This document shows, in pieces, positions 572 through 31,652 of a DNA stretch of 45,183 bases. Under the pieces are notes generated by a model. The model ran no database searches. It saw nothing but the letters and a program-made list of their open reading frames with translations, and was not told the origin of the DNA. Location of the stretch: NCBI GenBank assembly GCA_036399055.1, contig DASWNX010000013.1:1-45183 (forward strand), read 5' to 3'. Position numbers and translations under genes: made by a program. This stretch comes from Jatrophihabitans sp. GTDB lineage: Bacteria; Actinomycetota; Actinomycetes; Mycobacteriales; Jatrophihabitantaceae. How positions within the stretch are numbered: position 1 is the first letter of the stretch; each line of letters opens with the position of its first letter.

Positions 572-1189
572 ATGACGGCCGAGACGCTGCCAGCGGTCAC
601 CGGCGTCGTGCTCGCCGCCGGGGCGGGGCGCCGGCTCGGCCGTCCCAAGGCCGATGTCGAGCTCGGCGGGCAACGGCTGGTCGAGCGAGCGGTCTCCACG
701 CTGCTCGCCGGCGGCTGCGCCGAGGTGCTGGCGGTGTTGCGTCCCGAGCAGGCCGGCGCCGCCGGCGCCCGGACGGTCGTCAACCCCGATCCGGACCGGG
801 GGATGGGCTCGTCGCTGCGGTGCGCGCTGGCAGAGCTGGTCTGCGATCAGCAGTCCCACGCCTGCGTGGTGCTGCTGGTGGACCTGGTGGGCGTGCGTCC
901 GGCGGAGGTGGCGGCGGTGATCGAGCGACACCGGGCAGGCGCCTCGATCGTCGCGGTCCGCCGGGCCGGTCAGCGTTCCCACCCGGTTCTGGTGAGCCGC
1001 CGCTGGTACCCCGAGCTCGCCGCCGCCGCGGTGGGCGACCAGGGCGGCCGGGACTTCTTCGCCCGGCGGATTGCCGACACCAGCTTCCTCGATTACCCCG
1101 ATCCGCTCGATGACATCGACACCGCCGATGACCTGCGCCGCGCGCTGGCCGCGCAGCCGTCGACGGGTCAGGCCGGCGGCGCCAGCTGA
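572..1189 (+). CDS. MocA/MobA-like molybdenum cofactor nucleotidyltransferase
   Basis: Nucleotidyltransferase of the MobA/MocA type, expected to attach CMP or GMP to molybdopterin. The 205 residues start with the nucleotide-binding VVLAAGAGRRLGRPK loop (residues 12-26) and carry a GMGSSLRCAL motif (about 77-86), typical of MocA/PucB-like enzymes that prepare cofactor for xanthine dehydrogenase-family hydroxylases. The usual aspartate-proline metal-binding block reads LLVDLVGVRP here, with Asp present. The C-terminus has the DIDTADDLRRAL segment common to the family. It starts 4 bp after ribH and converges with the DUF1116 gene, overlapping it by 22 bp. The molybdenum hydroxylase at 11761-15673 is the natural client; FAD- or sugar-nucleotidyltransferase activity cannot be excluded. 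Confidence 0.78.
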   Translation: MTAETLPAVTGVVLAAGAGRRLGRPKADVELGGQRLVERAVSTLLAGGCAEVLAVLRPEQAGAAGARTVVNPDPDRGMGSSLRCALAELVCDQQSHACVVLLVDLVGVRPAEVAAVIERHRAGASIVAVRRAGQRSHPVLVSRRWYPELAAAAVGDQGGRDFFARRIADTSFLDYPDPLDDIDTADDLRRALAAQPSTGQAGGAS

Positions 1190-2580
1190 GCCAGCCGGGC
1201 CAGCGCCTTGGGAAAGATCTCGGCCGGCGGGGTGACCAGGCCGGCGCCGACCTGCCCGACCCCGGCCAGCCGACCGGCCATGCCGGTGTTGATCTGAGGC
1301 AGGATCTCGGTCCGCACCACCTTGGTGACGTCGATCCCGGTCGGCGAGCCACGGAAGTCCAGCACCGGGATCGAGTACATCGGATGCTCGCCGACGGTGA
1401 TCTCATACATCCGCCGCGACGCCGCCAGCGCGTCGGACACCTCGCCGCCGACGAACCGGACGATCGCCGGGGCGGCCGCCATCGAGAAACCGCCGAGGCC
1501 GGCCGTCTCGGTGATAGCCGAGTCGCCGATGTCGGGGTTGGCGTCGGCTGGGCCGAAGCTGCCCAGGAACAACCCGTCGGCCAGCTGGGCGGGCCCGGTG
1601 AACCACTGGTCGCCTGCGCCGGAGACCTGGATGCCGAAGTCGGTCCCGTTGCGCGCCATCGCCACCACCACCGTCGAGCCGGGGATGTCGCGGGCGGCGT
1701 CCAGCGTCAGCTTGCAGGCAGGCATCGCGAGGTTGAGGAAGAAGTGGTCGTTGCCGGCCATGAACCGGACCGCCTCGGCGACGTCGGCCGACGGCGCCCC
1801 GGAGTCGATCAGCTCGGGCAGCAACTCGCGCAGCAGCATCAGGGTGCCGGCCCGGTTGCGGTTGTGGGCCTCATCGCCCATCTGCAGCATCTGGGCCAGG
1901 ATCGCCTTGAGGTCGACCGGGCCGTGCCGGCGCACCGCGGTCTGCAGCAGCGGGGCAAGCACCCGCGACATCCAGCGCAGCCGGGTCAGCACCTCCGGTG
2001 AGTAGGCGCCGTAGCGAAGCACCTTGCCCAGGCCCTCGTTGAGGGTGCAGTACGTCCGCCGGCCGGTGGCCGGGTCCTCGACCACGAACACCCACATCGA
2101 GGCCGACACCACGCCTGCCATCGGGCCGACCGCCGAGTGATGGTGGCACGGGTCCAGGGAGTGCCCCGCGCCGGAGGCGAACAGCTCCTCGGCGTCCTCC
2201 GGGCGCTCGACGACCCCTTCCAGCGCGGCGGCGCCCATCAGCGCCCCGCGCAGCGGGCCGGACGCGCGCGACCACTCGATCGGCGGGCCGGCGTGCAGGA
2301 AGTCCCGGTCGGCCAGGCCCAGCGTGGCGCCGGCGGGCAGCACGTCCACCAGGTGGGCCTCGGTGGCGAAGATCCGGCTCAGCGCCTCGGCGTTGGCCGG
2401 CCGGCGGCGAGGATCGGCCATCACCCGCGCCAGATCGGCCTCGGTGCCTGGCATCGGCGGCCGCCAGTCGACCTGGCTGACTCCGCCGCCCTGGGCGGCC
2501 ACCGAGTCGGCGAACAGGCCGACTCCAGCGGCGACGACCTGCGGCGCGGAGCCGGTGAACCGGTGGGTGTCGGTGCTCAT
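1168..2580 (-). CDS. DUF1116 family protein (AllG/YlbE-like oxamate carbamoyltransferase subunit)
   Basis: A 470-residue DUF1116 protein. The family is known from the E. coli allantoin region (YlbE/AllG), where FdrA, YlbE and YlbF have been reported to form an oxamate carbamoyltransferase that phosphorolyses oxalurate to oxamate and carbamoyl phosphate. The sequence has the family's long central block with SLDPCHHHSAVGPMAG (about residue 140), CTLNEGLGKVLRYG (about 178) and a conserved MARNGTDFGIQ stretch (about 310). The ATG at 2580 has GGAGG about 9 nt upstream and overlaps the fdrA stop (ATGA), so the two are translationally coupled. The usual third partner (DUF2877, AllH) is not found in the window. 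Confidence 0.82.
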   Translation of the reverse strand: MSTDTHRFTGSAPQVVAAGVGLFADSVAAQGGGVSQVDWRPPMPGTEADLARVMADPRRRPANAEALSRIFATEAHLVDVLPAGATLGLADRDFLHAGPPIEWSRASGPLRGALMGAAALEGVVERPEDAEELFASGAGHSLDPCHHHSAVGPMAGVVSASMWVFVVEDPATGRRTYCTLNEGLGKVLRYGAYSPEVLTRLRWMSRVLAPLLQTAVRRHGPVDLKAILAQMLQMGDEAHNRNRAGTLMLLRELLPELIDSGAPSADVAEAVRFMAGNDHFFLNLAMPACKLTLDAARDIPGSTVVVAMARNGTDFGIQVSGAGDQWFTGPAQLADGLFLGSFGPADANPDIGDSAITETAGLGGFSMAAAPAIVRFVGGEVSDALAASRRMYEITVGEHPMYSIPVLDFRGSPTGIDVTKVVRTEILPQINTGMAGRLAGVGQVGAGLVTPPAEIFPKALARLAQLAPPA

Positions 2581-4049
2581 GGCCGGCCTCCAGTGGCGAT
2601 CAGGCTGAGTGCGTGCCGGGTGGCGGCGGCGTTCGAGGTGAACACCGACGCTCCGGCCTGGTGCAACCGTCGCGCCGAGGCCTCCAGCGACTGGGGGTCG
2701 CGGCGGGCGCCGATCAGGCTCACCACCACTGGCGTCGTCGTGCCGGCCAGCAGCGGCAGCAATTCGGCCACCGGATCAGGGTGGCTGCCATGCCCGAGCA
2801 CGACGTCGAGCAGCACCACCGCGGTGTCGGGGTCCTCCAGCAGCTCGGCCAGGCGGCGGTCGCGTAGCGACGGGTCGATCATCGGGTGCGCCCGGCCCTG
2901 GGTGAGCGCGTCGTCGCCGAAGTCGATCATCAGATGCCCGGGCCAGCGCAAGGTGGCATCCAGCGCCCAGTCCGGGCGCAGCGGGATGTTCGAACGCACC
3001 TCGCCCAGTTCGGCGCTGGCGATCAGCATCGCCTCGTCGCACAGGGTGCCGCCGCAGAACAGCCCGCGCAGGGCGCCGGACCGGGCTTGGCCGCTCCCGG
3101 GAGGCTGCGCCACCCACGACGGCCAGGTCGGCGCCGGGGCGCCCAGCTCGGCCAGGACGGTCTCGGTCGCCTGGGTCAGGTCGGGCTGGCCGGGCCCCAG
3201 CAGCGCGAACCGGACCGGGGTGGCCAAGCCGTCGGCGACCTGCCGGACCCGCTCGGCCACCGAGGCCGCCGGAGGCTTGGACACCACCAGGATCAGCTCG
3301 GTGCCCGGGTCGGCGTCCAGCATTCGCAGCGCGGCCAGGGTAGAGCGCCCGGCGACCTCGGCGGACAGGTCCCGCCCGCCGACCCCGAGCGCGGCGCTGA
3401 CCCCGACCCCGGCCGCGTCCAGCAGGCACAGCACCTGCTGCGCTCCGGTTCCCGAGGCCGCGACCAGCCCGACCGGGCCACGCTCAAGGGTGTGGGAGAA
3501 CCCCAGGCCCAGGCCGCCGATGACCGCGGTGCCGCAGTCGGGCCCCATCACCAGCAGCCCTCGCTCGGCCGCGGCGTCCTTGAGCTGGATCTCCTGGGCG
3601 AGGCTGACATTGTCGGAGAACACCAGCACGTCACAGCCGGCTTCCAGGGCGTCCATCGCCTCGGTGAAGGCGTGCTGGCCAGGCACCGAGATGAGCGCCA
3701 GCCCGGCGCCGGTGGAGGCCGCGGCCGAGCCGATGGTGCGCGGCGGCTGCTCGGCGGCGGCAGCGCCGGTGGACCGGCTGGGTGCGCTGAGCAGCCGCTC
3801 GGCCAGCTGCGCGGCGTCCTCGACGGCCTGCTGGTCGCCGGCCCGGACGGCGATGAACAGCTCGTTCGGGGACTGGCTGGCGGGCGGCTCAAACCCCATC
3901 CCGGCCAACATCTCGAGGTTGAGCTCGGTGGCCATGCCGACCAGGGCGGCCTGAACCCCGGCGGCCTGGCCCACCTGGCGGCTGACCTGCAGCAGGGTCA
4001 CCGAGTCGGCGTAGAGCCCCCGGCGCAGCAGTACCTGTTCCGAACTCAT
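2577..4049 (-). CDS. fdrA: FdrA family protein (AllF-like carbamoyltransferase subunit)
   Basis: A 490-residue FdrA-type protein, related to the succinyl-CoA synthetase alpha/beta fold. The start at 4049 gives MSSEQVLLRRGLYADSV, the normal FdrA beginning, and has a GGAGG ribosome site 6 nt upstream; an in-frame ATG at 4085 would add 12 unlikely residues. Recognisable blocks are the VLVFSDNVSLAQEIQLKD segment, the GPDCGTAVIGGLGLGF loop and the GASGTGAQQVL-like glycine loop (AASGTGAQQ), which in the CoA-ligase fold bind nucleotide or phosphate. A late His-containing VLGHGSHPDPV motif is also present. It leads a two-gene unit with DUF1116, divergent from the PucR regulator. Oxamate/carbamoyl transfer is inferred from the family; the true substrate is unknown. 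Confidence 0.85.
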   Translation of the reverse strand: MSSEQVLLRRGLYADSVTLLQVSRQVGQAAGVQAALVGMATELNLEMLAGMGFEPPASQSPNELFIAVRAGDQQAVEDAAQLAERLLSAPSRSTGAAAAEQPPRTIGSAAASTGAGLALISVPGQHAFTEAMDALEAGCDVLVFSDNVSLAQEIQLKDAAAERGLLVMGPDCGTAVIGGLGLGFSHTLERGPVGLVAASGTGAQQVLCLLDAAGVGVSAALGVGGRDLSAEVAGRSTLAALRMLDADPGTELILVVSKPPAASVAERVRQVADGLATPVRFALLGPGQPDLTQATETVLAELGAPAPTWPSWVAQPPGSGQARSGALRGLFCGGTLCDEAMLIASAELGEVRSNIPLRPDWALDATLRWPGHLMIDFGDDALTQGRAHPMIDPSLRDRRLAELLEDPDTAVVLLDVVLGHGSHPDPVAELLPLLAGTTTPVVVSLIGARRDPQSLEASARRLHQAGASVFTSNAAATRHALSLIATGGRP

Positions 4050-4115
4050 GCGCGGCCTCCAGCCGGTGTCGGGTGCCCACTGCATGCGGCCCTGGCTGGA
4101 ACGTAATCAGTGAGC

Positions 4116-4148
4116 TACCTTCTGCCGATGGTTACAGTTGCCAACCAT
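4116..4148 (+). promoter_or_regulatory. Putative leaderless pucR promoter with overlapping inverted repeat
   Basis: TACCTT at 4116-4121 fits the actinobacterial -10 pattern TAnnnT and ends six bases before the ATG at 4128, the spacing expected if transcription starts on that A. ATGGTT (4128-4133) and AACCAT (4143-4148) form a 6-bp inverted repeat across the start, a possible operator. No convincing -35 hexamer is seen. This lies in the 4050-4127 divergent gap with fdrA. Confidence 0.35.
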
Positions 4149-5891
4149 CAAGCTCACAACCTACGCAATCTGCCAGCAGACGGCACGGACGGGCTCAGCG
4201 TGGCGGAGCTGCTGGAGGCGCCGAGGCTGGCCGGCGCCACGGTGCTGGCGGGTGGGTCGGGCCTGAATCGGGTGGTGCGAGGGGTCGGCGTGCTGGAAGT
4301 GCCCGACATCCTGCCGGGGGTCAAGGCCCACCAGCTGCTGCTCAGCACGGCTTTCGCCCTGGACCCGGCCTCGGCCGCGGCAGCCGGCTTGGCGACCGAC
4401 GCAGCCGGCGGCTTGGCGACCGACGCAGCCGCCGGTCAGCGCAGGCAGCTGCTGCGGCTGATCGAGGATCTCAACGCCCGGCAGCTGTCGGGTATCGCGG
4501 TCGAGTTGGGCGCGGCGCAGCTGCCCGCGCAGGTGATCGAGCTGGCGGACGAGCTCGGCTTTCCGGTGCTGCGGCTGGGCGACGGCGTGGTCTTCGACGA
4601 GGTGCTCACCGAGGTCTACGAGCTGTTGCTGGAGCGGCAGAGCCAGGTGCTGACCCAGTCCGACGCGCTGCACGCGGCCATCTCCAGCATCGTGCTCAAC
4701 GGCGGCGGACTGCCCCAGATCGCCGACGAGGTGTCCCAGCTGCTGGACTGCGCGCTGCTGATCACCACACCGGACGGCCGGGTGCAGGCCGACGAGGGCG
4801 GCGCTGGGCATCGTCAGGCGGTCGAGGCGGCCGGGCTGTGGGACAGCAGCGGCCGGTTGCTGGTGGAGCGGCTGCGCATCGGGCTGCTGGCGGCGGAGGA
4901 GGACGAGTACGGCGGGCAGGCCGCGATGACCTCGATCGTGGCCGGCGGCCTCGATCATGGCCGGATCGTGGCCTACCGGCAGCAGCCGCTGCCGCCGGGG
5001 ACCGTGCAAGCGCTGGAGCGGGTGGCGATCGTGGCGGCGCTGACCATCACCAAGGAGCTGGCAGTCTCGGCGGTCGAGGGAAAGTTCCGGGGCGACTACC
5101 TGCGCGACGTGCTGACCGGCCAGGTCGCGGTGGACGAGCCGGTCGTGCAGCACTGCCGCTCACTGGGCTGGGACATCGACCGCCCGATGGTGGTGCTGGT
5201 GGCGGAGTTGGACGCGGCCGAACCCAGCAAGCCGGGGGCGGCGCCGGCCGGGTCGGCGGTGGTGCAGCGGTCCCAGCACGAGCGCTTCGTCTCGGCCTGG
5301 CAGCAGGTGCTGCGGGCTCGTGACAAGACCGTGCCGGTGGTGGGCTTCAGCCACGAGGTCGTCGCGCTGCTTCCGGCGCGCTCCGGCGAGCAGGCTCGGA
5401 TGGTGGCCGAGCTGATCGCCGCGGTGTCCGGGGACCGTGGCGGGGGCCGGCAGTCCTTCAGCGCCGGGGTGTCGCGCCGGGTGCTCGAGCCGTCTGAGAT
5501 CGCCACCGGTTACGCCCAGGCCCGCAAGGCGGTCTCGGTCGGGCGGCGGGTGCACGGTCACGGCAGCGTGTCGCATTTCGACTCCCTAGGCGTGCACCGG
5601 TTGCTGTCGCTGGTGCCCGACACCGCTGAGTTGAAGTCCTTCGCCACTGAGGTGCTCGGCGTGCTGGCCTCAGACGCCGCCGACGCGGCCGATCTGCGGA
5701 TGACCCTGCAGACGTTGCTCGACACCAACCTCAACGTGGCTGAGACGGCCCGGCTGCTGCACTTTCACTACAACACGCTGCGGTACCGGATCAGCAAGCT
5801 GGAACGGATCGTGGGGCCGTTCACCACCGACCCGCATCTGCGGCTAGACGTCGCGCTGGCGCTGCAGGTCGTGCAGATGCGGGGCATCTGA
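4128..5891 (+). CDS. PucR family transcriptional regulator
   Basis: A 587-residue regulator of the purine-catabolism (PucR) class. Residues about 20-170 form the N-terminal PucR ligand-binding domain (LSVAELLEAPRLAG, then VLEVPDILPGVKAHQLLLST). A GGDEF-like/middle region follows, and the C-terminus (about 520-580) has the PucR helix-turn-helix: TNLNVAETARLLHFHYNTLR then YRISKLERIVG. ATG 4128 is chosen because a -10-like element sits at leaderless distance; GTG 4110 would add six residues. A 21-nt sequence is duplicated in frame (4386-4406 and 4410-4430), repeating GLATDAAG inside the PucR domain. Divergent from fdrA-DUF1116 and near permease and molybdenum hydroxylase genes, it probably controls this catabolic locus. 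Confidence 0.88.
   Translation: MVTVANHQAHNLRNLPADGTDGLSVAELLEAPRLAGATVLAGGSGLNRVVRGVGVLEVPDILPGVKAHQLLLSTAFALDPASAAAAGLATDAAGGLATDAAAGQRRQLLRLIEDLNARQLSGIAVELGAAQLPAQVIELADELGFPVLRLGDGVVFDEVLTEVYELLLERQSQVLTQSDALHAAISSIVLNGGGLPQIADEVSQLLDCALLITTPDGRVQADEGGAGHRQAVEAAGLWDSSGRLLVERLRIGLLAAEEDEYGGQAAMTSIVAGGLDHGRIVAYRQQPLPPGTVQALERVAIVAALTITKELAVSAVEGKFRGDYLRDVLTGQVAVDEPVVQHCRSLGWDIDRPMVVLVAELDAAEPSKPGAAPAGSAVVQRSQHERFVSAWQQVLRARDKTVPVVGFSHEVVALLPARSGEQARMVAELIAAVSGDRGGGRQSFSAGVSRRVLEPSEIATGYAQARKAVSVGRRVHGHGSVSHFDSLGVHRLLSLVPDTAELKSFATEVLGVLASDAADAADLRMTLQTLLDTNLNVAETARLLHFHYNTLRYRISKLERIVGPFTTDPHLRLDVALALQVVQMRGI
4386..4430 (+). repeat. In-frame 24-bp-period tandem duplication in pucR
   Basis: A 21-nt string beginning GGCTTGGCGACC occurs identically at 4386-4406 and 4410-4430, a period of 24 bp that keeps frame and duplicates eight residues. 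It is a recent-looking slippage or duplication event. Confidence 0.85.
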
Positions 5892-5995: not shown

Positions 5996-6865
5996 TCACT
6001 CAGTAAACGGCGTTGGAACTGCCCTATTCGAGGCTTGGGCTAAGCGGACGATAAGCGCGCCCACAACGTGGACCATCAACCATGCGTCGGAAAGGTCCGA
6101 CTCGGTGTAGTGATGTGCTTCGCCTTCGTTCCGCTCAGCCGCCGCCCATTGGGCGAATGCCGCGATTGCATCAGTCAGTCGGCTGTCGCGGGCGCTGAAC
6201 AGTCCGCGACGTTTTGCGCTCGCAATCAACGGACCCAGGGTGCGGCCCTCACAGCCTAACGCTTCCAGCGTCTCTTGTAGGGCCGTTGCTGCGTCCGTAA
6301 TGGCGTCACCGGCGTCGCCTACGCGAATTTCTTGGAGGGCCTTCATGTAGGCCTTCTCGCCGCTGGCGAATTCTGCATGGCCGTGTAGCAAGTACAGCGC
6401 GGGGAACACAACGGCAGCGTTCATCTCAAAAGATTCGACTGGAATAATCTGTCCTTCGACCAGGCGGAATGCCACTCGGTGAGCCTCGAAGATGCGGTTA
6501 ACCTCGCTGCGGAAGAACTGCTGAGCGCTGTCGCCTTCGAGCAACCCCTCTTCGTCAAACGCCATGTCCATCGCTTCAAGCACTGAGAGGACTTCAGGCG
6601 TGCTGTTGGCGAAGCGCAGGCGCGAGCCCGCATCGTCGAGACCATTGCTCTCTAGACCGAGCGACACTTCTAGGGCTTCCGCTATCAATGTGTTCGCGGA
6701 GGTGCCGTATTGGTTGGTGGGTATCACGTCTACGCAAGCGTTCTTCCACGCTCGCTTGAGCTTGACCAGGGCCTCGGGTGGTATCTCAGCGGTCCACAGC
6801 GACTCACCACGCGCCTCGGCATCCGCCTGGGCCGCCAGCCGTAGTCGCTCTGCGTACAGCTCCAT
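5996..6865 (-). CDS. Abi_C/HEPN-like protein, candidate abortive-infection RNase
   Basis: A 289-residue protein with no close household relative. Its C-terminal third resembles the abortive-infection C-terminal (Abi_C) fold of HEPN proteins: a helix leads to WAAAERNEGEAHH, whose R-N-x4-H (Arg about 245, His about 251) is the catalytic pattern of HEPN ribonucleases, followed by a hydrophobic helix DAWLMVHVVGALIVRLAQ. The middle FFRSEVNRIFEAHRVAFRLV (about 117-136) then GQIIPV resembles the vN-leader-dG segment preceding Abi_C domains. ATG 6865 and GTG 6871 are both possible; no clear ribosome site is visible. Base use is noticeably less G/C-rich than the neighbours, suggesting acquisition. No antitoxin or partner is adjacent. 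Function is inferred from motif only. Confidence 0.6.
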   Translation of the reverse strand: MELYAERLRLAAQADAEARGESLWTAEIPPEALVKLKRAWKNACVDVIPTNQYGTSANTLIAEALEVSLGLESNGLDDAGSRLRFANSTPEVLSVLEAMDMAFDEEGLLEGDSAQQFFRSEVNRIFEAHRVAFRLVEGQIIPVESFEMNAAVVFPALYLLHGHAEFASGEKAYMKALQEIRVGDAGDAITDAATALQETLEALGCEGRTLGPLIASAKRRGLFSARDSRLTDAIAAFAQWAAAERNEGEAHHYTESDLSDAWLMVHVVGALIVRLAQASNRAVPTPFTE

Positions 6866-7017
6866 CCGCACAGTTTCGCATCACGCTCTGCGGGTTGCAG
6901 GGATGCTCAGTGATGGAGAGGGTGGACACCGTTCGTTGCGGGCAGGGGAGATCGTATCGAGGGGTGGGATCCCGAGCCGATACTTGGGGGTGAACCTGCG
7001 GAAGGTTTGAAGGCATC

Positions 7018-7045
7018 TTGACATATTCCCATATAGGAATATGAT
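7018..7045 (+). promoter_or_regulatory. Promoter and ArsR-type operator of the arsR-SRPBCC pair
   Basis: TTGACA (7018-7023), 16 bp, TATGAT (7040-7045) is a near-consensus sigma-70/HrdB promoter. The -10 ends six bases before ATG 7052, predicting a leaderless mRNA. A perfect 8-bp inverted repeat, CATATTCC (7022-7029) and GGAATATG (7036-7043) with a 6-nt spacer, fills the core promoter; binding of the ArsR product there would block RNA polymerase, so autorepression is likely. Confidence 0.85.
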
Positions 7046-7051
7046 TTCGGC

Positions 7052-7435
7052 ATGGCGAGAGCGGCGACGACGGCGGACGCGTTCAACGCGATAGCCGAAG
7101 CGCGCCGCCGCGAGATCCTAGACGTGCTCGCCGACGGTGAGCGCGGCGTCAACGACCTCGTCACGCTGCTGGGCCTGGCTCAGCCACTGGTGTCCAAGCA
7201 CCTTCGGGTGCTGCGCGAGGTCGGCTTGGTCGACGTGCGTGAGGACGGCCGCCAGCGGGTGTACCGGCTCAATGCCCGGTCGCTCAAACCCGTACACGAC
7301 TGGGTCAGCGGCTACGAGCGGTTGTGGTCTGAGCGGCTGGACCGCCTCGACGCCGTGGTGCGGGAGCTCAAGGAACTCGAAGAACAGCAGGACATCACTG
7401 AGGAGGAGCACGGAGATGACAGCAGGAACCAGTAG
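7052..7435 (+). CDS. ArsR-family winged-helix repressor
   Basis: A 127-residue ArsR-type DNA-binding protein. The core runs from FNAIAEARRREILDVLADGE through NDLVTLLGLAQPLVSKHLRV (recognition helix, about residues 33-55) to the wing VDVREDGRQRVYRLN (about 61-77). It lacks the CxC metal-binding motif of classic ArsR/SmtB sensors and instead belongs to the stand-alone group paired with SRPBCC/AHSA1 proteins. The start codon lies directly at the predicted transcript 5' end. It overlaps the SRPBCC gene by 20 bp. The palindrome inside its own promoter makes it the probable autorepressor; the inducer is unknown. Confidence 0.92.
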   Translation: MARAATTADAFNAIAEARRREILDVLADGERGVNDLVTLLGLAQPLVSKHLRVLREVGLVDVREDGRQRVYRLNARSLKPVHDWVSGYERLWSERLDRLDAVVRELKELEEQQDITEEEHGDDSRNQ

Positions 7436-7904
7436 CGGCGCCGCCGTGATGACGCTGCCGAGCGACACCCAGATCCTGATCACCCGGGAGTTCAACGCCC
7501 CCAGGGCCCTGGTCTACCGGGCCTGGACGACGCCAGAGCTCATCAAGCGCTGGTGGGGCGCCGAGCGGGGCGAGGTCACCGAAGTCGAGGTCGACCTCCG
7601 GGTCGGCGGCCGCTGGCGCTACGTGTCGGTCACCCACGCCGGGTTCGAGTTCGCCTTCAGCGGGGAGTACCGCGAGATCGTGGAGAACGAGCGGCTGGTG
7701 TGGACCGAGGTCTATGAGCAGATGCCCGAGCACGAGGCGCTGAACACCCTCACCCTGACCGAGCAGGGGGGACGCGCCACGCTCACTATCCTGGTCGAGC
7801 ACGCCAGCAAGGAGTCCCGGGACGCCCACCTCGACTCCGGCATGGAACCCGGCATGCAGGACGCGCTGAGGCTGCTCGAGCAAGTCGCGGCGTCGCTGAG
7901 GTGA
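7416..7904 (+). CDS. SRPBCC (AHSA1/START-like) domain protein
   Basis: A 162-residue SRPBCC protein of the AHSA1 type, a small hydrophobic-pocket fold. Visible family landmarks are the opening ITREFNAPRALVYRAWTTPE, the LIKRWWG tryptophan pair, VGGRWRYVSV (about 64), GEYREIVENERLVWTE (about 83) and a C-terminal helix after DSGMEPGMQDALRLLEQ. ATG 7416 has AGGAGG about 10 nt upstream and lies inside the end of arsR, so the two are coupled; an alternative ATG is at 7449. ArsR-SRPBCC pairs are common in actinobacteria, where the SRPBCC partner is thought to bind a small hydrophobic ligand or handle the stress sensed by the repressor. The substrate is not predictable. Confidence 0.9.
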   Translation: MTAGTSSGAAVMTLPSDTQILITREFNAPRALVYRAWTTPELIKRWWGAERGEVTEVEVDLRVGGRWRYVSVTHAGFEFAFSGEYREIVENERLVWTEVYEQMPEHEALNTLTLTEQGGRATLTILVEHASKESRDAHLDSGMEPGMQDALRLLEQVAASLR

Positions 7905-7914
7905 ACCGCACGCC

Positions 7915-8514
7915 ATGAGCGCCGCGGACGAGGGGACCGCCGCACCGGCCGGCTCCGCGCCGGCCGGCTCCGCACCGGCTGGCTCCCTACCGGCTGGCTC
8001 CGTACCGGCTGGCTCGGCGCCGCGTGAGCAGGACCGCTACGTCGCGGTGATCGGGCCGCGGACGGCCGACGCAAGGCTCTACCAGCTGGCCTACGAGGTC
8101 GGGGCCGAGCTCGCCGGCCGGCACGCCGTCCTGCTCTGCGGCGGGCTCACCGGGGTGATGGAGGCGGCGGCCCGTGGCGCGCGTGAGGCGTCGCCGCCGG
8201 GACGTTCGATCGGCCTGCTGCCGGGAACCGACCGGCAGGAGGGCAACCCGTTCCTGGACTACACGCTGGCCACCGGCCTGGCCGAGGCCAGGGACGGGGC
8301 GCTGGTCACCAGCGCCGACGCCGTGATCGCGGTGGGCTGCAATCCGGGGACGCTGATCGAGATCGGCTATGCGCTCAAACGCCAACGCCCGCTGGCGGTG
8401 TTGGCCGGCTGGGCGGTGCTGGACGAGTCCGGCCAGCCGGTTCCCGGGTTCCGGGTGGCCCGGACTGCCGCCGAGGCGGTCACCATGGTGCTCGGCCAAG
8501 CCGGCGATGGCTGA
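7915..8514 (+). CDS. TIGR00725/LOG-like Rossmann protein
   Basis: A 199-residue Rossmann-fold protein of the TIGR00725 group, related to lysine-decarboxylase-like/LOG proteins. The folded part starts near residue 40 with YVAVIGPRTAD, followed by VLLCGGLTGVMEAAARGA (nucleotide-binding PGGxGT-like region), GRSIGLLPG and VGCNPGTLIEIGYALK, where the usual PGG is CNPG. The first ~38 residues are a low-complexity run of GSAPA-type pentads from a 15-bp tandem repeat and are not part of the family fold. It begins 10 bp after the SRPBCC stop, so may be cotranscribed. Family members bind nucleotides, but the biological role of TIGR00725 is not established. Confidence 0.82.
   Translation: MSAADEGTAAPAGSAPAGSAPAGSLPAGSVPAGSAPREQDRYVAVIGPRTADARLYQLAYEVGAELAGRHAVLLCGGLTGVMEAAARGAREASPPGRSIGLLPGTDRQEGNPFLDYTLATGLAEARDGALVTSADAVIAVGCNPGTLIEIGYALKRQRPLAVLAGWAVLDESGQPVPGFRVARTAAEAVTMVLGQAGDG
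7942..8022 (+). repeat. 15-bp in-frame tandem repeat (GSAPA pentads)
   Basis: About five copies of a GGCTCCGCACCGGCT-like unit encode successive G-S-(A/L/V)-P-A pentapeptides at the N-terminus of the LOG-like protein. Copies differ mainly at the residue after serine. Confidence 0.85.
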
Positions 8515-8532
8515 GCCCGTCTTGCTTCCGGT

Positions 8533-8609
8533 GCGTCATGCTCTCAGGTGGCCATGACCACCTGAGAGCATGACGCTGACGCCCGACCACCTGAGAGCAT
8601 GACGCTGAC
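8533..8609. repeat. 19-bp perfect inverted repeat plus a second direct copy of one arm
   Basis: Bases 8533-8551 pair perfectly with 8558-8576 across a 6-nt loop. The right-arm region (8556-8580, 25 nt) is repeated exactly at 8585-8609 after 4 nt. The element lies between the LOG-like stop and the agmatinase start. No T-run follows, so a simple intrinsic terminator is not obvious; it could be a terminator, an operator array or a small dispersed repeat. Confidence 0.9.
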
Positions 8610-8649
8610 CTGGCGAGGGCTGAGCCGTGGCCGGGGCGATACTGGGTCA

Positions 8650-9768
8650 ATGGCCACTGACGTTCCCGCTGCTGAGGATGACCGCGCCGCCGGCGCGAGC
8701 CCCTCAGCCGCCGGCGCGAGCCCCTCAGCCAGCGGCGCGAGCCCCTCAGCCGCCGGCGCGAGCCCCTCAGCCGCCGGCGCGAGCCCCTCAGCCAGCGGCG
8801 CGAGCCCCTCAGCCGCCGACGCTGCTGAAGTCAGCTCTGCGCCGGTCGGCCCGCTCGACGGCGCGGTGATCCCCAGGTACGCCGGGCTGCCGACCTTTGC
8901 GCGGCTGCCCCGCATCGAGGACGTGCCGCGATTCGACGTCGCCGTCCTAGGGATTCCCTTCGACAGCGGCGTGAGCTACCGCCCGGGCGCGCGGTTCGGC
9001 CCGGCGCACATCAGGCAGAGCTCACGGCTGCTGCGCCCGTACAACCCGGCGCTGGAGGTGGCGCCGTTCGGCGTCCAGCAGGTCGTCGACGCCGGCGACC
9101 TGGTCGTCAACCCGTTCGACATCGGCCAGGCCATCGGCCAGATCGAGGCCGGCGCCCGCCAGCTCAGCCAGAGCGGCAAGCTGCTCGTGCTGGGTGGTGA
9201 CCACACGATCGCCCTGCCGGTGCTGCGGGCGATGCACGCGTTGCACGGCGAGATCGCGGTGCTGCACTTCGACGCGCATCTGGACACCTGGGACACCTAT
9301 TTCGGCGAGCCCTACACGCACGGCACGCCGTTTCGCCGGGCGTCGGAGGAGGGTTTGCTGGACCGCGAGCACTGCCTGCACATCGGCATCCGCGGGCCGC
9401 TGTATGACCCCGCCGACCTGACCGACTCCTTCGACCTGGGTTTCGCCACCATTCACTGCGTGGAGCTGGAGACCCTTGGCGTGGCCGGCGTGATCGAGCG
9501 GATGCGCGCCCGGCTGGGGGACCGGCCGGTCTATGTCTCGATCGACATCGACGTGCTGGACCCGGCCCACGCGCCCGGCACCGGAACGCCCGAAGCCGGC
9601 GGGATGAGCTCCCGCGAGCTGCTCGCCGTGCTGCGCGGCCTGATGGGCGCCAACATCGTCTCCGCCGACATCGTCGAGGTGTCACCGGCCTATGACCACG
9701 CCGAGATCACCGGCATCGCGGCGGCCCATGTCGGCTTCGAGCTGCTCTCGGTGCTCGCCCTCGGCTGA
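8650..9768 (+). CDS. speB: Agmatinase-family ureohydrolase
   Basis: A binuclear-manganese ureohydrolase (arginase/agmatinase superfamily), removing urea from a guanidino substrate. The Mn ligands are present: VLGGDHT (about residue 180-186), [10 protein letters not shown] (about 206) and [14 protein letters not shown] (about 297), with a following TGTPEAGG segment typical of agmatinases and guanidinobutyrases. Length is 372 residues, longer than usual because residues 15-56 are six GASPSA(A/S) heptads. ATG 8650 is preferred to the in-frame ATG at 8599, which lies inside a DNA repeat. GATACT at 8638-8643 sits at leaderless distance. Guanidinobutyrate, guanidinopropionate or agmatine are all possible substrates; the symbol denotes the family. 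Confidence 0.87.
8692..8817 (+). repeat. 21-bp tandem repeat, six copies, in agmatinase N-terminus
   Basis: Six adjacent 21-bp units (GGCGCGAGCCCCTCAGCC plus GCC or AGC) encode GASPSAA or GASPSAS heptads. The variants alternate as A, S, A, A, S, A, which looks like duplication of a larger block followed by slippage. Confidence 0.95.
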
Positions 9769-11754: not shown

Positions 11755-11760
11755 GACACG

Positions 11761-25310: not shown

Positions 25311-25319
25311 CATTGAGAG

Positions 25320-26779: not shown

Positions 26780-26817
26780 GCGCTGAGACAGCCTTGTCTC
26801 CGACGAACAGCACTGAG

Positions 26818-27291: not shown

Positions 27292-27493
27292 GCCGGCCGT
27301 CACTCCTGAGCGGGCCGTCTCGCCTTGTCCTGGCCGTCTCGCCTTGCCCTGGCCACGCGGCCGTCCTCGGGTGCGCGGCCAGCGCAGGCCGCAGACGCAT
27401 CGGGCTGCGCCGGGGGACACGTGCCAACGGATCAGTCAGTTATAGGCAGAATGCGCCGAAGCAACGGGCAGGCCGGCACAGTTGACTTCAGGC

Positions 27494-29662
27494 ATGTCTG
27501 GGCAGCGGAGTATCCGGGTCGGCATCGACACCGGAGGCACGTTCACCGACGTGGTGGCCTTCGACGAGGAGTCCGGCGAGCTGGTCAGCACCAAGGTCGC
27601 CTCCACCCCGGCCGATCCGGCGCAGGGCTTTCTGGCCGGCATCGACAAGGTGCTCGACATCCTCGGCATCCCGCGTGAGCAGGCCAGCCGAGCGCTCAGC
27701 GCGGTCTGCCATGGCACCACGGTGGCCACCAACCAACTGCTCGAAGGCAAGGTGGGGGTGCTCGGCTTCATCGCCTCCGAGGGTTATGAGTTCATTCTCG
27801 AGATCGCCCGGCAGTCGGTGCCCGACGGCTACGGCAACAGTTACTTCTGGGTCAAGCCCGAGCGGATCGTCCCGGCCGACCGGGTCAAGACCGTCGGCGG
27901 CCGGCTCGACCACACCGGCGTGGAGGTCCGGCCCTTCGATGAGGCCGGCGCGGTCGAGATCGCCCGATGGTTCAAAGGCAAAGGCATCGACACGATCGGG
28001 GTCTGCCTCCTGCACTCCTACGCTGACCCCGCGCACGAGCAGCGGATGCGCGACATCCTCGCCGCCGAGCACCCCGCCGCCGTCGTCTCGATCTCCTCAG
28101 AGGTGCTGCGTGAGTACCGGGAGTACGAGCGGTCGATGACCACGCTGGTGGACGCGGCGGTCAAGCCTAAGGTGGCCGGTTATGTCGGCGCCATCAAGCG
28201 GCGCCTGGACGCCCTCACCGACGGGCGTGAAGTCCCGTTCTACGTCATGAAGTCCAACGGCGGGGTGTTGTCGGCGGCCGAGGTGGTGCACCAGCCCATC
28301 ACCACGGTGCTGTCCGGCCCGGCCGCCGGCGCGCTGGGCGCGGCGATGATCGCCCGCAACGCCGGCTTCGCCCAGGTGCTCACCTGTGACGGCGGCGGCA
28401 CCTCGACCGACGTCTCGGTGGTGCTGGACGGCGAGCCGACCCTGACCACCGAGGGCGCCGTGGGCGCCTACCCGTCCAAGATCCCGATGATCGATGTGGT
28501 GACGGTCGGCGCCGGCGGCGGCTCGATCGCCTGGATCTCACCGGAGGGCGCGCTGAAGGTCGGCCCGAAGTCGGCCGGCGCCGATCCGGGCCCGCTGTGC
28601 TACGGCGCCGGGGGCGCCGACGTCACCATCACCGACGCGCATCTGGTGCTGGGCCGGATACCGCCGCACCTGCTGGGCGGCGAGATCCCGCTCGACACCG
28701 CTGCCGCCCAGGCCGGGCTCACCAAGCTGGCCGCCGAGCTGGGGCTGGAGCTGGCGGCCTGCGCCAACGGGGTCCTGGAGATCTCGGCCTGGAACCAGGC
28801 CAACGCGCTGCGGCAGATCACCGTCCAGCGAGGGTTGGACGTCCGCGAGTTCACCCTGACCACCTTCGGCGGGTCCGGCTCGCTGCTGCTCTGCCGGCTG
28901 ATCGACATCCTCAACCTGCGCGGTGTGCTGGTGCCACCTGATCCGGGCAACGTCTCGGCGTTCGGGCTGCTCACCGTGGACGTCAAGAACGACTACGTGC
29001 AGACCGCGGTCGCCAAGCACGCCGAGCTCGACCCGGCCGAGGTCAGCGCCAGCTTCGCCGCGCTCACCGGCCAGGCCGCCGCCGCGCTGGAGCGTGAGGG
29101 CTTCGCCCAGCCGCAGCACCGGTTCCTCCGCTCGGCCGACCTGCGCTACTTCGGCCAGGCCTTCGAGGTCCGGGTTCCGGTGGAAGAGGGCGAGCTGACC
29201 GACCAGGCGCTGGCAGGCGTCGCGGCGGCCTTCCACGACGCGCACCGCGGCCTGTACGGCTATGACTTCCGTGGACAGGCCAGCCAGCAGGTGGAGTGGG
29301 TCAACCTGCGGGTCTCAGGCATCGGGCCGATCCGGCGTCCCGAGCTGCGCCGGCACGCCGCGCCGGCCGGCGACGTCGAGCGGGCCCGCACCGGCACCCG
29401 CGACGTCTGCTTCGACGGACGGGACTACCTGCCGACGCCGCTGTACTGGCGCGCGGACCTCGGGCCCGGCGACGTGCTGGCCGGTCCGGCGGTGATCGAG
29501 GAGTTCGGCTCGACGGTGCCCCTGCATCCTGGGTTCAGCGCCAGGCTGGACGACTACGCCAACCTGCTGATCACCCGCGAGGCGACAGCGAGTGAGCATC
29601 GCGGGGCCGTCAGCGCCGAGCGGCCGAGCGAGCGCGGAGCTGGCACGGAGCCGACCGCATGA
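27494..29662 (+). CDS. hyuA: Hydantoinase/oxoprolinase subunit A
   Basis: A 722-residue HyuA-type protein of the ATP-dependent N-methylhydantoinase / 5-oxoprolinase / acetone-carboxylase family. The N-terminal ASKHA nucleotide site IRVGIDTGGTFTDVVAFDEE (about residues 7-26), AVCHGTTVATNQLLEGKVGV (about 75) and the central TCDGGGTSTDVSVV phosphate loop (about 297) are intact. ATG 27494 is chosen over TTG 27482. With HyuB it hydrolyses a cyclic amide at the cost of ATP. Hydantoin-type rings arise in purine and creatinine breakdown, so it may extend the catabolic locus at 10339-17276. Substrate cannot be read from sequence. Confidence 0.9.
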   Translation: MSGQRSIRVGIDTGGTFTDVVAFDEESGELVSTKVASTPADPAQGFLAGIDKVLDILGIPREQASRALSAVCHGTTVATNQLLEGKVGVLGFIASEGYEFILEIARQSVPDGYGNSYFWVKPERIVPADRVKTVGGRLDHTGVEVRPFDEAGAVEIARWFKGKGIDTIGVCLLHSYADPAHEQRMRDILAAEHPAAVVSISSEVLREYREYERSMTTLVDAAVKPKVAGYVGAIKRRLDALTDGREVPFYVMKSNGGVLSAAEVVHQPITTVLSGPAAGALGAAMIARNAGFAQVLTCDGGGTSTDVSVVLDGEPTLTTEGAVGAYPSKIPMIDVVTVGAGGGSIAWISPEGALKVGPKSAGADPGPLCYGAGGADVTITDAHLVLGRIPPHLLGGEIPLDTAAAQAGLTKLAAELGLELAACANGVLEISAWNQANALRQITVQRGLDVREFTLTTFGGSGSLLLCRLIDILNLRGVLVPPDPGNVSAFGLLTVDVKNDYVQTAVAKHAELDPAEVSASFAALTGQAAAALEREGFAQPQHRFLRSADLRYFGQAFEVRVPVEEGELTDQALAGVAAAFHDAHRGLYGYDFRGQASQQVEWVNLRVSGIGPIRRPELRRHAAPAGDVERARTGTRDVCFDGRDYLPTPLYWRADLGPGDVLAGPAVIEEFGSTVPLHPGFSARLDDYANLLITREATASEHRGAVSAERPSERGAGTEPTA

Positions 29663-29681
29663 CCCGGACGGAGCAGCCAGT

Positions 29682-31652
29682 ATGAGCGCAGCAGGCACGA
29701 ACGCGGCGAGCGTCAGCTCGGCTGTGCCAGCCGCCGACTCGCTGACCGCTGACCGCGGCGCGACGGTGGACCCGATCGTCCTGGAGATCGTGCAGGGCAG
29801 CCTGGCCGCAGTCGAGCAGGAGGTCGAGACGGCCATCGGGCGCACCTCGCGCTCGCCGATGATCCGCGACGCGCACGACTTCCGGGCCGGCATCCATGAC
29901 CGGTTGCTGCGCAAGCTGACCGGGCGCAGTTACTCCGCGCTGGTGCACCCGATCGCCAGGGACTTCCCGCTTGCCCAGATGCGCCCGGGTGACGTGTTCT
30001 TCCACAACGACGTCTACCTATCCGAAGGCGGCATCGGCCACCTGCCCGACCTGTGCGTGACGGTTCCGGTGTTCGTGCAAGGCGAAACGGGGCCCGAGGT
30101 GGTGGCGTTCGTGCAGGCATTCGGTCACCACGACGACATCGGCGGCGCGGTTCCCGGGTCGATGCCCAGCTCTGCCACCAGTGTCTTCGAAGAGGGCTTG
30201 ATGGTGCCGCCGATCAAGCTCTGGGACGCAGGCGTGCCCAACCGCGCCGCGCTGGCCATCATGACCCGCAACTCGCGGATGCCGGACTCGCTGGCGGCCG
30301 ACCTGGACGCCGAGTGCTCGGCGTGCCTGATGGGCTCGCGCCGGCTGTCGGAGCTGTTCGAGCGTTATGGCCGCGACACCGTCGAGGCGTGCTTCGACCA
30401 GATCGTCGACCGCACCACCGAGACCTACCGGCGCGAGATCCTCACCAAGATCCCGGTCGGCAGCTGGACCTGGGAGGACTACGCCGAGCATGACGGCGTG
30501 GAGCCGCCGAAGCTGCACACCCAGCGCATCACGCTCACCCGGACCGGCGCGCAAGACTCCGGCGGGGAAAGGCTGATCCTGGACTTCAACGGCACCGCGC
30601 CGCAGGCCAAGGGCCCGATCAACCACTGCGGCGACTACGCCGACGGCAACTTCTTGAAGAAGTGGTTGGCGCCGGTGCTGCGCAATCTCGCCGACAGCCC
30701 CGAGCGGATGGCCGAGCTCGACGTCAACGAGGGGGTGGTGCCGCTGATCGAGATGCGGTTCCCGCCTCCGGGCACGCTGCTCACCCCGGTGTTCCCGGCG
30801 CCGACGAACGCCCGGACGTTCGTCATCCTGCGGCTGCTGGGAGTGCTGGCCGGGGTGCTGGCCAAGGCGGTCGACGGCCGGATGCCGGCCGACCAGGAGA
30901 CGATCCGCTACACCGGGGTCTACGGCGAGGACTTCGACGGCCAGCCCTACCTGATGCGCGAGGTGCTCGGCGGCGGTTCGGGCGGGCGGTACTACGCCGA
31001 CGGCGAAGACACGATCCATGTGGTGCCGGACTCGCGCAACCTGCCGACCGAGTTCACCGAAGCCCGATTCCCTTTCCTGGTCGAGCGACTGGGCTTGGCG
31101 GTGGACTCCGGCGGCCCGGGTGAGTTCCGCGGCGGCCTCGGCTACGACAAGCACATCCGGATGCTCAAGGACGGCCATTTCATGTCGATCGCGGACCGGT
31201 CGATCCTGGCCTGCTGGGGAGTCAAGGGCGGCAAGGCCGGTCAGCCGTTCTCGGTCCTGATCGACCCTGGCGGCCCCAACGAGCGGGTGGTGGACGCCCT
31301 GGCCGACGCCGAGCCGGTCCGCGCCGGTGAGGTGATCCGCATCCGCACCACCGGCGGCGGCGGATGGGGCGATCCGCTGCGGCGGGCGCCCGAGGCGGTG
31401 CTGCGTGACGTCCAGTGGGGCAAGGTCTCGGCAGCGGCGGCCCGGACGGATTACGGCGTGGTGCTGACCGGCGCGGACGGCGAGCTGGAGGATCTCGCCG
31501 TCGACGCCGCAGCCACCACCGAGCTGCGGGCTCAGCTGGCCGCGGCCAGGCCGGCCGACCCGCCGTTCTTCGACCGAGGTCCCGGCTACGCCACGCTGTC
31601 CGGCGGCGCGCAGTCCTCGGCCTATGACCACCTGGCTCCTGGAACCGTCTGA
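29682..31652 (+). CDS. hyuB: Hydantoinase/oxoprolinase subunit B
   Basis: A 656-residue HyuB-type protein, partner of HyuA. Family blocks are VDPIVLEIVQGSLAAVEQEV near residue 28, FFHNDVYLSEGGIGHLPDLC (about 107), FGHHDDIGGAVPGSMP (about 147, the metal-ligand His-His-Asp region), NHCGDYADGNFLKKW (about 315) and the C-terminal TTGGGGWGDPLRR glycine motif (about 560). ATG 29682 follows GGAG and lies 19 bp after the hyuA stop; a longer in-frame ATG at 29592 would overlap hyuA heavily. It carries the ring-opening or carboxylating site in characterised relatives. Confidence 0.9.
   Translation: MSAAGTNAASVSSAVPAADSLTADRGATVDPIVLEIVQGSLAAVEQEVETAIGRTSRSPMIRDAHDFRAGIHDRLLRKLTGRSYSALVHPIARDFPLAQMRPGDVFFHNDVYLSEGGIGHLPDLCVTVPVFVQGETGPEVVAFVQAFGHHDDIGGAVPGSMPSSATSVFEEGLMVPPIKLWDAGVPNRAALAIMTRNSRMPDSLAADLDAECSACLMGSRRLSELFERYGRDTVEACFDQIVDRTTETYRREILTKIPVGSWTWEDYAEHDGVEPPKLHTQRITLTRTGAQDSGGERLILDFNGTAPQAKGPINHCGDYADGNFLKKWLAPVLRNLADSPERMAELDVNEGVVPLIEMRFPPPGTLLTPVFPAPTNARTFVILRLLGVLAGVLAKAVDGRMPADQETIRYTGVYGEDFDGQPYLMREVLGGGSGGRYYADGEDTIHVVPDSRNLPTEFTEARFPFLVERLGLAVDSGGPGEFRGGLGYDKHIRMLKDGHFMSIADRSILACWGVKGGKAGQPFSVLIDPGGPNERVVDALADAEPVRAGEVIRIRTTGGGGWGDPLRRAPEAVLRDVQWGKVSAAAARTDYGVVLTGADGELEDLAVDAAATTELRAQLAAARPADPPFFDRGPGYATLSGGAQSSAYDHLAPGTV

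Follow-up and report, generated by a model that had tools for sequence, protein, structure and literature searches.

Gene content of the locus

The window, the whole 45,183-nucleotide stretch of Jatrophihabitans sp. DNA analysed here, carries genes for a molybdenum hydroxylase, the FdrA and AllG subunits of an AllFGH-type carbamoyltransferase, a PucR-family regulator, a nucleobase permease, a nitrilase-fold amidase, and HyuAB (Table 1). Thirty open reading frames of the window were scanned with Pfam and 20 with NCBIfam, and every gene named in a first-pass annotation of this DNA is present at the position it gave. As that annotation had also said, there is no AllH, uricase, allantoinase or obvious carbamate kinase among the scanned frames. 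The single AA_kinase match in the window (35713-37275) lies within a run of arginine-biosynthesis genes, and because of this position we take it to be argB. Codon usage places the start of FdrA nearer 4049 and that of PucR nearer 4200; HyuA and HyuB may start at 27494 and 29724. The NCS2 permease scores 339 bits with the NCBIfam model for RutG, 255 with uracil permease and 149 with xanthine permease, all below their cut-offs. The MocA-like protein is likely involved in molybdenum-cofactor maturation for CoxL; a mocA match occurs in 6 of 44 locus groups and lies near the cluster in some relatives.

Within 572-31652, two parts fall outside the conserved cluster. The block between PucR and NCS2 also contains, on the plus strand, AHSA1, LOG and arginase family genes, which occur in 2 of the 44 locus groups, namely the window and the same-genus relative G058. 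The arginase-family gene, seen in these two only, was set aside as a pathway member. Between 17352 and 26779 lie genes for FabF, FabH and TerD and, besides small frames, one for a large LysM protein.

Table 1. Features of the locus, with positions in the window
Feature	Position	Strand	Support or remark
MocA-like nucleotidyltransferase (MobA-like NTP transferase)	572..1189	+	Pfam E 1.5e-34
AllG (DUF1116)	1168..2580	-	PF06545 E 6.7e-100; PDB 3CLQ E 4e-107
FdrA (AllF)	2577..4085	-	NF004760 373 bits, below the model cut-off of 433; PDB 3DMY FdrA E 7e-65
Position between FdrA and PucR that AllH occupies in most relatives	4086..4109	.	gene absent here
PucR-family regulator, divergent from FdrA	4110..5891	+	PF07905 E 1e-23
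Block between PucR and NCS2	5996..9768	mixed	outside conserved cluster
AbiJ-like gene in this block	5996-6871	-	
127-residue frame in this block	7052-7435	+	without family scan
NCS2 nucleobase permease	10339..11754	+	Pfam E 6e-68
CoxM-like FAD subunit of molybdenum hydroxylase	11761..12645	+	Pfam/NCBIfam
CoxS-like [2Fe-2S] subunit	12642..13274	+	Pfam/NCBIfam
CoxL-like Mo subunit	13271..15673	+	NF040766 1509 bits
CoxG-like protein	15670..16377	+	PF06240 E 5e-20
Nitrilase-fold amidase	16377..17276	+	PF00795 E 1e-49
HyuA, ATP-dependent hydantoinase/oxoprolinase-family subunit	27482..29662	+	PF01968 E 6e-86
HyuB	29592..31652	+	PF02538 E 5.5e-136

Recurrence of the cluster in Actinobacteria

A neighbourhood comparison across actinobacteria, which the first-pass annotation had recommended, showed that the cluster recurs as AllG-FdrA(-AllH) / PucR-NCS2-CoxMSL-CoxG-nitrilase or amidase-HyuAB. 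It is found in Nocardioides, Phycicoccus, Terrabacter, Embleya, Microbispora, Geodermatophilus and others; its longer versions also include carbamate kinase together with an AtzD/TrzD enzyme of barbiturase type. Genes of the relatives were called by codon usage, with locus L073 read by tblastn instead. There are at least 80 named loci; the 23 among those listed with CoxL identity of at least 65% were annotated, and 10 of those under 65% were examined by tblastn. In 9 of the 23, the stretch with the cluster also bears carbamate kinase, AtzD or both; Rhodococcus provides a tenth such locus, with one or both on a neighbouring stretch. Across the 44 locus groups, PucR matches occur in 31, carbamate kinase in 19 and AtzD in 20. 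HyuA (24) and HyuB (21) are part of the same recurring cluster, so their earlier assignment to the locus holds. The nitrilase is found in 14 groups and an AS amidase in 11, with no overlap. Two clusters have pyrimidine nucleoside phosphorylase and cytidine deaminase beside AllG. Some clusters include a CoA-transferase, which could also fit oxalate.

The same genes co-occur at the genome level. In an order survey of 150 genomes, CoxL of this type is carried by 46, AtzD by 47 and AllG by 51, and the overlaps are 45 (CoxL and AtzD), 45 (AllG and CoxL) and 44 (AllG and AtzD). In a phylum sample of 296, AllG is present in 14 of 18 AtzD carriers versus 22 of 278 others; 22 of the 36 AllG carriers are without AtzD. 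The named genomes have AtzD in 21 of 22 and AllG in 19 of 22, and genomes with a distant CoxL have them in 4 and 2 of 18; L066 and L093 are outside these counts. L061 lies in the genome that the order survey lists as G100. Fisher tests on these counts are descriptive, as relatives are not independent and phylogeny was ignored.

In the AllG tree, 33 sequences from CoxL-bearing genomes and one from G050 form one clade (100/98), with E. coli AllG outside. G050 has FdrA, AllH and an amidase alongside its AllG and is without this CoxL or AtzD. In three genomes there is a second AllFGH next to an AllK-like kinase, and that AllG lies outside the cluster clade. Columns L339, R423, G436 and V444 are fixed in the clade and fixed otherwise in the four AllK-type rows; the count of all-invariant AllG columns leaves out row L179.

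A barbiturase-type AtzD and a heterocycle-type hydroxylase

The host genome has an AtzD-family gene and a carbamate kinase, both on contigs other than the window's. The carbamate kinase adjoins AtzD on contig C25; it passes NF009007 (288 over 266) and scores 333 with TIGR00746, below 358. The G058 AtzD, 95% identical to the C25 copy, has the PDB entry 'Barbiturase' 5HWE as its best match at 654 bits, versus 309 for cyanuric acid hydrolase. It also passes the NCBIfam 'cyanuric acid amidohydrolase' equivalog NF052395 (473 over 360). An excerpt of PMC4051656 gives Arg188 in the second domain for cyanuric acid hydrolase and Gln for the barbiturase subgroup. In our alignments the equivalent residue is Asn in both the G058 AtzD and 5HWE, and Arg in 6BUM; the match is therefore inexact, since that excerpt has Gln where we see Asn. 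On these comparisons the AtzD of this genome appears to be of barbiturase type, closer to barbiturase than to cyanuric acid hydrolase, and it is the likely source of the ureido acid. The nitrilase had been put forward as a supplier of this compound, for which we found no support; AtzD on another contig is the likelier source. PDB matches of the nitrilase are non-diagnostic, and malonamidase E2, considered as a match of the AS amidase, is absent from the 30 PDB matches listed for it. We think it more likely that the nitrilase acts downstream, on the amide product, as a malonamate hydrolase.

CoxL has a PYRGAGR motif, invariant in nine aligned CoxL sequences, and the GAGE glutamate. Aerobic CO dehydrogenase of form I has a Cys-containing Cu-binding loop; this loop is not in CoxL in the nine-sequence alignment, where PYRGAGR stands instead. 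CoxL passes NF040766, a CO dehydrogenase model ('group 5'). Its best PDB match is quinoline 2-oxidoreductase at 460 bits, versus 425 or less for CO dehydrogenase, and its nearest solved relatives are N-heterocycle hydroxylases. We propose CoxMSL as a candidate uracil/thymine dehydrogenase, an enzyme for which we know of no gene.

Apparent loss of AllH

A Pfam search of the host genome for DUF2877, a check that the first-pass annotation had called for, found no AllH gene at significant score. A profile built from the AllH of relatives likewise gave no significant match genome-wide; its best, at 12.7 bits (E 0.127), was considered as an AllH hidden elsewhere and treated as chance. AllH was not found in G058 either. 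The gap between FdrA and PucR is 24 bases with the longest frames and 150 with codon-usage starts, and a remnant there was rejected, as was a fusion, of which the Pfam matches of FdrA and AllG have no trace. The same annotation had left it open whether the third subunit is encoded elsewhere or a two-subunit variant is at work. The former did not hold up in our genome-wide searches; with the subunit undetected anywhere in an assembly that is 99.5% complete, the latter is therefore plausible.

AllG alters 0 of 131 columns that are invariant in AllH-bearing relatives, and FdrA 1-2 of 95 (window copy: 1). This count covers 33 loci and leaves out fragments and partial genes (L040, L046, L049, L062, L086, L097, L189), L073, L186 and paralogues outside the cluster. 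The dN/dS ratio is 0.25 for FdrA and 0.17 for AllG, and somewhat lower in an AllH-bearing pair (0.17 and 0.11). In G080, FdrA and AllG are fused, likewise with no AllH detected. Because both genes are intact and constrained, FdrA-AllG here is probably a two-subunit variant that followed AllH loss. In E. coli, full activity of oxamic transcarbamylase requires all three subunits: allFG without allH gives ~7% of wild-type oxamate, with 1.2 of 17.7 mM in the allH deletion strain and 2.9 +/- 3.3 of 38.3 mM with allFG only, the latter with a large error, and allGH without allF gives 16% (PMC11326118).

A proposed pathway and its alternatives

We consider it likely, on gene content and context, that a large part of an oxidative pathway of actinobacteria for uracil and thymine via barbiturate is encoded in the window, with AllH lost and FdrA-AllG a two-subunit enzyme. 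We infer the substrates and reactions throughout. Uracil or thymine would be taken up by NCS2 and hydroxylated by CoxMSL, helped by CoxG and MocA, to barbiturate or 5-methylbarbiturate. Ring opening by AtzD would give ureidomalonate, an N-acylurea that exceeds oxalurate by one CH2. FdrA-AllG, an enzyme of oxamate-carbamoyltransferase type working as a pair after the presumed loss of AllH in this lineage, would convert ureidomalonate and phosphate to malonamate and carbamoyl phosphate, and carbamate kinase would make ATP from the latter. The nitrilase, or the AS amidase in other genera, would hydrolyse malonamate to malonate. HyuAB has no clear step. The earlier suggestion that the carbamoyl substrate of FdrA/AllG is something other than oxalurate is most likely right, judging from this context.

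More tentatively, FdrA-AllG could be an ATP-recovering ureidomalonate (N-malonylurea) transcarbamoylase that replaces ureidomalonase in many Actinobacteria and is an AllH-less two-subunit enzyme in this genus, and the 'CO dehydrogenase group 5' CoxL could be the missing uracil/thymine dehydrogenase gene. The large error on the E. coli allFG value and the G050 AllG without CoxL or AtzD lower our confidence, and we offer this as a serious possibility that may well prove wrong.

Among the alternatives, it is unlikely, if conceivable, that pyrimidine oxidation is right and FdrA-AllG is inactive or re-tasked in this lineage owing to the loss of AllH. The low oxamate of E. coli without AllH and our failure to find AllH in the host genome or G058 would fit, but the intact, constrained genes and the G080 fusion argue against it. 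A hydantoin route, in which CoxMSL converts hydantoin to parabanate, HyuAB yields oxalurate and FdrA-AllG cleaves it, would suit AllFGH chemistry unchanged, and it is favoured by the recurrence of HyuAB in the cluster and by HyuA, whose nearest PDB entry is N-methylhydantoinase 7HK5 (459 bits). It leaves unexplained, however, the barbiturase-type AtzD and the pyrimidine nucleoside phosphorylase and cytidine deaminase of two clusters, and no HyuAB appears in the stretches examined for G039, G057 and G016, which carry Cox genes, AtzD and AllG. We regard it as quite improbable.

The first-pass annotation had envisaged a route for a purine, hydantoin or other N-heterocycle. An N-heterocycle is very likely involved; the purine and allantoin part of that suggestion does not stand. 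In a purine route CoxMSL would be a xanthine dehydrogenase and FdrA-AllG would cleave allantoin-derived oxalurate, as might be read from the PucR and NCS2 families at the locus, from E. coli AllFGH being oxamic transcarbamylase, and from uricase, which, like carbamate kinase, a genome search proposed earlier did find outside the window. Uricase, however, belongs to a locus of its own on contig C26, where it is accompanied by xanthine dehydrogenase PucD (801 bits), HIUH, OHCU decarboxylase, allantoinase and allantoicase, whereas the window locus has no xanthine dehydrogenase, uricase or allantoinase of this pathway. AllG carriers in the order survey have uricase less often (31 of 51) than CoxL (45 of 51), and the second AllFGH beside an AllK-like kinase, with its AllG outside the cluster clade, also argues against it. 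We reject the purine reading as very improbable because of the separate locus and the weaker co-occurrence with uricase. Hardly credible is an aerobic CO dehydrogenase or a cyanurate pathway, as the names of NF040766 and NF052395, both passed, would have it: CoxL has PYRGAGR rather than the Cu-binding motif and scores higher with quinoline oxidoreductase, and AtzD is closer to barbiturase. A molybdenum hydroxylase and NCS2 are not expected in a cyanurate pathway. Riboflavin or lumichrome degradation was also considered and set aside; in the part of PMC12746152 consulted, the terms hydantoinase, carbamoyl, barbiturate, ureido and oxamate do not occur.

Comparison with known systems

Among the literature matches listed, given as titles and abstract starts and with subscription papers mostly outside their coverage, none links AllFGH or CoxMSL to barbiturate or uracil. 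To our knowledge, two steps of the pathway have no assigned genes, the uracil/thymine dehydrogenase step and the one that disposes of ureidomalonate, and the AllFGH-type carbamoyltransferase family has been assayed with oxalurate and oxamate only. The cluster offers candidate genes for both steps. If our reading is true, it would widen the role of the carbamoyltransferase family and provide a natural loss of a supposedly needed subunit. For such clusters, the database names CO dehydrogenase, cyanuric acid hydrolase and oxamate carbamoyltransferase may be misnomers.

An allantoin-breakdown enzyme seems to have been re-used in a pyrimidine pathway, with one of its three subunits apparently lost in this species. 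This genome resembles E. coli in encoding homologues of FdrA and AllG, with a carbamate kinase at another place in the genome, and in the N-acylurea substrate expected; unlike in E. coli, AllH was not found, AllG belongs to a separate clade, and there is a link to barbiturase and a molybdenum hydroxylase. The oxidative pyrimidine pathway of uracil oxidation, barbiturase and ureidomalonase was worked out in Rhodococcus. It was described in the 1950s, according to an excerpt of PMC3758960. The present system has in common with it an AtzD of barbiturase type and, as we infer, a molybdenum enzyme that oxidises uracil. Rhodococcus sp. 1168 likewise has an NCS2-CoxMSL-CoxG-HyuAB block and AtzD, but its genome has no AllG; AtzD there has two AS amidases in its vicinity, and the examined stretch has no carbamate kinase. 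Amidases without AllG or carbamate kinase fit a hydrolytic ureidomalonase there, whereas the step proposed here is phosphorolytic. With the CoxMSL of aerobic CO dehydrogenase, the locus shares a three-subunit molybdenum hydroxylase and a CoxG-like protein; it differs in its PYRGAGR active-site motif and in having N-heterocycle hydroxylases as nearest solved relatives.

Organization of the cluster

The window spans one entire contig. Its reading frames, re-examined, bear out the gene list of the first-pass annotation. NCS2 through the nitrilase-fold gene adjoin almost without gaps, and this near-zero spacing suggests one operon.

Features of the window
Feature	Position	Strand or remark
Frame at left flank	91-567	groups with relatives' DMRL synthase, last of a riboflavin-biosynthesis run
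AllG	1168-2580	minus
FdrA	2577-4085	minus
PucR	4110-5891	divergent from AllG and FdrA
Block of five frames		between PucR and NCS2
NCS2, CoxM, CoxS, CoxL, CoxG, nitrilase-fold gene, in order	10339 to 17276	same direction as PucR
HyuA, HyuB	27482-31652	beyond unrelated genes
Right flank		arginine-biosynthesis genes

AbiJ-like, AHSA1, LOG-like and agmatinase-like genes lie at 5996-9768, the last three also being found in the relative G058; this genome and the window's are the two of the genus having AllG without AllH. A 1300-residue LysM-containing protein adjoins a TerD-family gene (20212-25243), and another TerD gene lies past HyuB (32532-33737). The arginine-biosynthesis genes (34152-41218) include one of the ornithine-carbamoyltransferase family, which might draw on carbamoyl phosphate directly.

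Comparison of stretches around AllG in relatives with named loci found by CoxL alignment (at least 23 with CoxL at 65% identity or more, all annotated) shows that the arrangement recurs across actinobacteria, a comparison that the first-pass annotation had proposed. AllG-FdrA-AllH is divergent from PucR-NCS2-CoxM-CoxS-CoxL-CoxG and either a nitrilase or an AS amidase; many loci continue with HyuA-HyuB. Because many stretches are cut, counts over the 44 locus groups are lower bounds: AllG at least 33, FdrA 37, AllH 29, PucR 31, CoxL 42, CoxG 38, HyuA 24, HyuB 21, carbamate kinase 19, AtzD 20, nitrilase 14 and AS amidase 11, the last two together in none. An alphaproteobacterial MAG also has HyuA-HyuB-CoxM-CoxS-CoxL together (L082:4645-12310; CoxL 52%), in a stretch without AtzD; two AtzD matches lie elsewhere in its genome.

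Longer versions of the cluster also carry carbamate kinase and an AtzD/TrzD-family ring-opening enzyme, and in two Nocardioides loci AllG is adjoined by pyrimidine nucleoside phosphorylase and cytidine deaminase. These neighbors point to pyrimidines. A gene family, C3, occurs in eight stretches; the member tested is a class III CoA-transferase, which passed none of the specific models, its top scores being 310 for succinate-glutarate (cut-off 750) and 242 for oxalate (cut-off 522). HyuAB is under constraint (dN/dS about 0.1), and our guess is that it opens 5-methylbarbiturate.

Co-occurrence and alternative roles

We surveyed 150 genomes of the window's order, counting as CoxL of this type an NF040766 match at E 1e-250 or lower. 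Carriers number 51 for AllG, 47 for AllH, 47 for AtzD, 46 for CoxL and 65 for uricase; overlaps are 45 for CoxL with AtzD, 45 for AllG with CoxL, 44 for AllG with AtzD, 43 for AllG with AllH and 31 for AllG with uricase. (G150, the genome of locus L061, labelled 'Pseudonocardiales bacterium BP_200', is G100 of this survey, with identical AllG and AtzD coordinates, and so belongs to the window's genus.) Among 296 genomes across the phylum, AllG occurs in 14 of 18 AtzD carriers versus 22 of 278 others. AtzD is thus absent from 22 of 36 AllG carriers in that sample, so AllG also serves further roles. G050, a counter-example, has FdrA, AllG, AllH and the cluster-type amidase and lacks both AtzD and CoxL of this type. 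Among the matches listed, 22 searchable named genomes have CoxL of at least 65% identity; AtzD is present in 21 and AllG in 19 of them, versus 4/18 and 2/18 where CoxL is more distant (52% or less). The three of the 22 in which AllG was not found are an Aeromicrobium MAG, which also lacks AtzD; a Catenulispora MAG, with a stretch that starts at PucR; and Rhodococcus sp. 1168.

A purine route, one of the roles first entertained, is made unlikely by a separate gene set in the same genome: genes for xanthine dehydrogenase, urate oxidase, HIU hydrolase, OHCU decarboxylase, allantoinase and allantoicase cluster on contig C26. The allantoicase route is not known to require AllFGH. CO dehydrogenase, the name attached to NF040766, likewise looks unlikely for CoxL, since among solved relatives quinoline 2-oxidoreductase (460 bits) scores above CO dehydrogenase (425 and 377), with 6-hydroxypseudooxynicotine dehydrogenase at 454. 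PYRGAGR is the invariant loop of the nine CoxL aligned.

Probable loss of AllH

In 25 of 33 loci compared AllH sits immediately upstream of FdrA, and in five it is detached; for these, it was located elsewhere in all three genomes searched. A detached AllH adjoins a distant PucR-like gene (25-32% identity) in several genomes (L031, L032, L035, L036). In the window and G058 it is missing from its usual place, and neither Pfam nor a profile of relatives' AllH found it in the window's genome (99.5% complete) or G058 (98% complete). The profile recovered its own G017 row at 2e-70, as expected; Pfam gave that copy 1e-15. The same searches did not find AllH in G080 (best 14 bits), whose FdrA and AllG are fused in a single reading frame (L051:8221-11235). 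A Terrabacter locus with the same fusion (L071:721-3792) retains AllH.

Overall, 8 of 51 AllG carriers of the order lack AllH, including 4 of the 45 with CoxL (G000, G058, G080 and G093, the AllG of G093 being a contig-end fragment only), as do, in the phylum sample, 2/14 AllG carriers with AtzD versus 9/22 without. Against columns invariant in AllH-bearing rows, the window's AllG shows no departure at 131 and its FdrA one at 95; most AllH-bearing rows themselves show 0 to 3. Between the window and G058, dN/dS is 0.17 for AllG and 0.25 for FdrA; in an AllH-bearing pair the values are 0.11 and 0.17. In E. coli, allFG alone is reported to bring oxamate back to 7% of the wild-type level, the error on this value being large (2.9 +/- 3.3 mM), and allGH to 16% (PMC11326118). 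A putative two-subunit FdrA-AllG form may thus be compatible with known biochemistry. Two further genomes, G007 and G095, neither with a detectable AllH, bring together a BiuH-like cysteine hydrolase, FdrA, AllG and carbamate kinase (L052, L053), the kinase of L053 being fused to an allophanate-hydrolase C-terminal domain; this is possibly another two-subunit variant, of a biuret-type pathway.

Candidate substrate and comparison with known systems

Ureidomalonate, the product of barbiturase, is like oxalurate an N-acylurea, one CH2 longer. On these grounds it is a candidate substrate on which FdrA-AllG would act, by analogy with E. coli AllFGH, reported to yield oxamate plus carbamoyl phosphate by phosphorolytic cleavage of oxalurate (PMC11326118). 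One AllG clade (100/98) holds 33 sequences from CoxL-bearing genomes and that of G050, in a tree whose deeper forks are unsure and involve long branches. Outside it fall E. coli AllG and second copies near AllK-like kinases in G115, G129 and G157. At four AllG columns the clade has one fixed residue and the four AllK-type rows another. The second AllFGH copies (L187, L188, L183) adjoin an AllK-like carbamate kinase 51-53% identical to that of E. coli; in G115 and G157 a CoxL-linked copy was read besides. In nitrifiers, allFGHK beside biuret/triuret genes has been interpreted as oxalurate degradation (PMC12625717).

By sequence, AtzD is barbiturase-like: that of G058 scores 654 bits to PDB 5HWE ('Barbiturase') versus 309 to the best cyanuric acid hydrolase. 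It likewise passes the NCBIfam cyanuric acid equivalog (473 over a cut-off of 360). Barbiturases are described as differing from cyanuric acid hydrolases at Arg188, replaced by Gln (PMC4051656); the equivalent is Asn in G058 AtzD and 5HWE, so the distinction holds only as absence of Arg. In the window's genome, one AtzD lies beside carbamate kinase at the end of contig C25; another, sharing 77% identity with it, starts contig C31, and both are cut by the contig ends. These paralogues (L153 end, L154 start) may form a tandem pair at which the assembly broke.

The oxidative pyrimidine work of Soong and colleagues reportedly used Rhodococcus. In that breakdown, for which PMC3758960 cites them, barbiturase is followed by ureidomalonase, yielding malonate and urea. 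Like the clusters here, Rhodococcus sp. 1168 has an NCS2-CoxMSL-CoxG-HyuAB block and AtzD. Unlike the window, its genome gave no AllG when searched; carbamate kinase was not seen in the stretch read, and two AS amidases lie near AtzD. This one genome fits AllFGH with carbamate kinase and a hydrolytic ureidomalonase as alternatives for one step.
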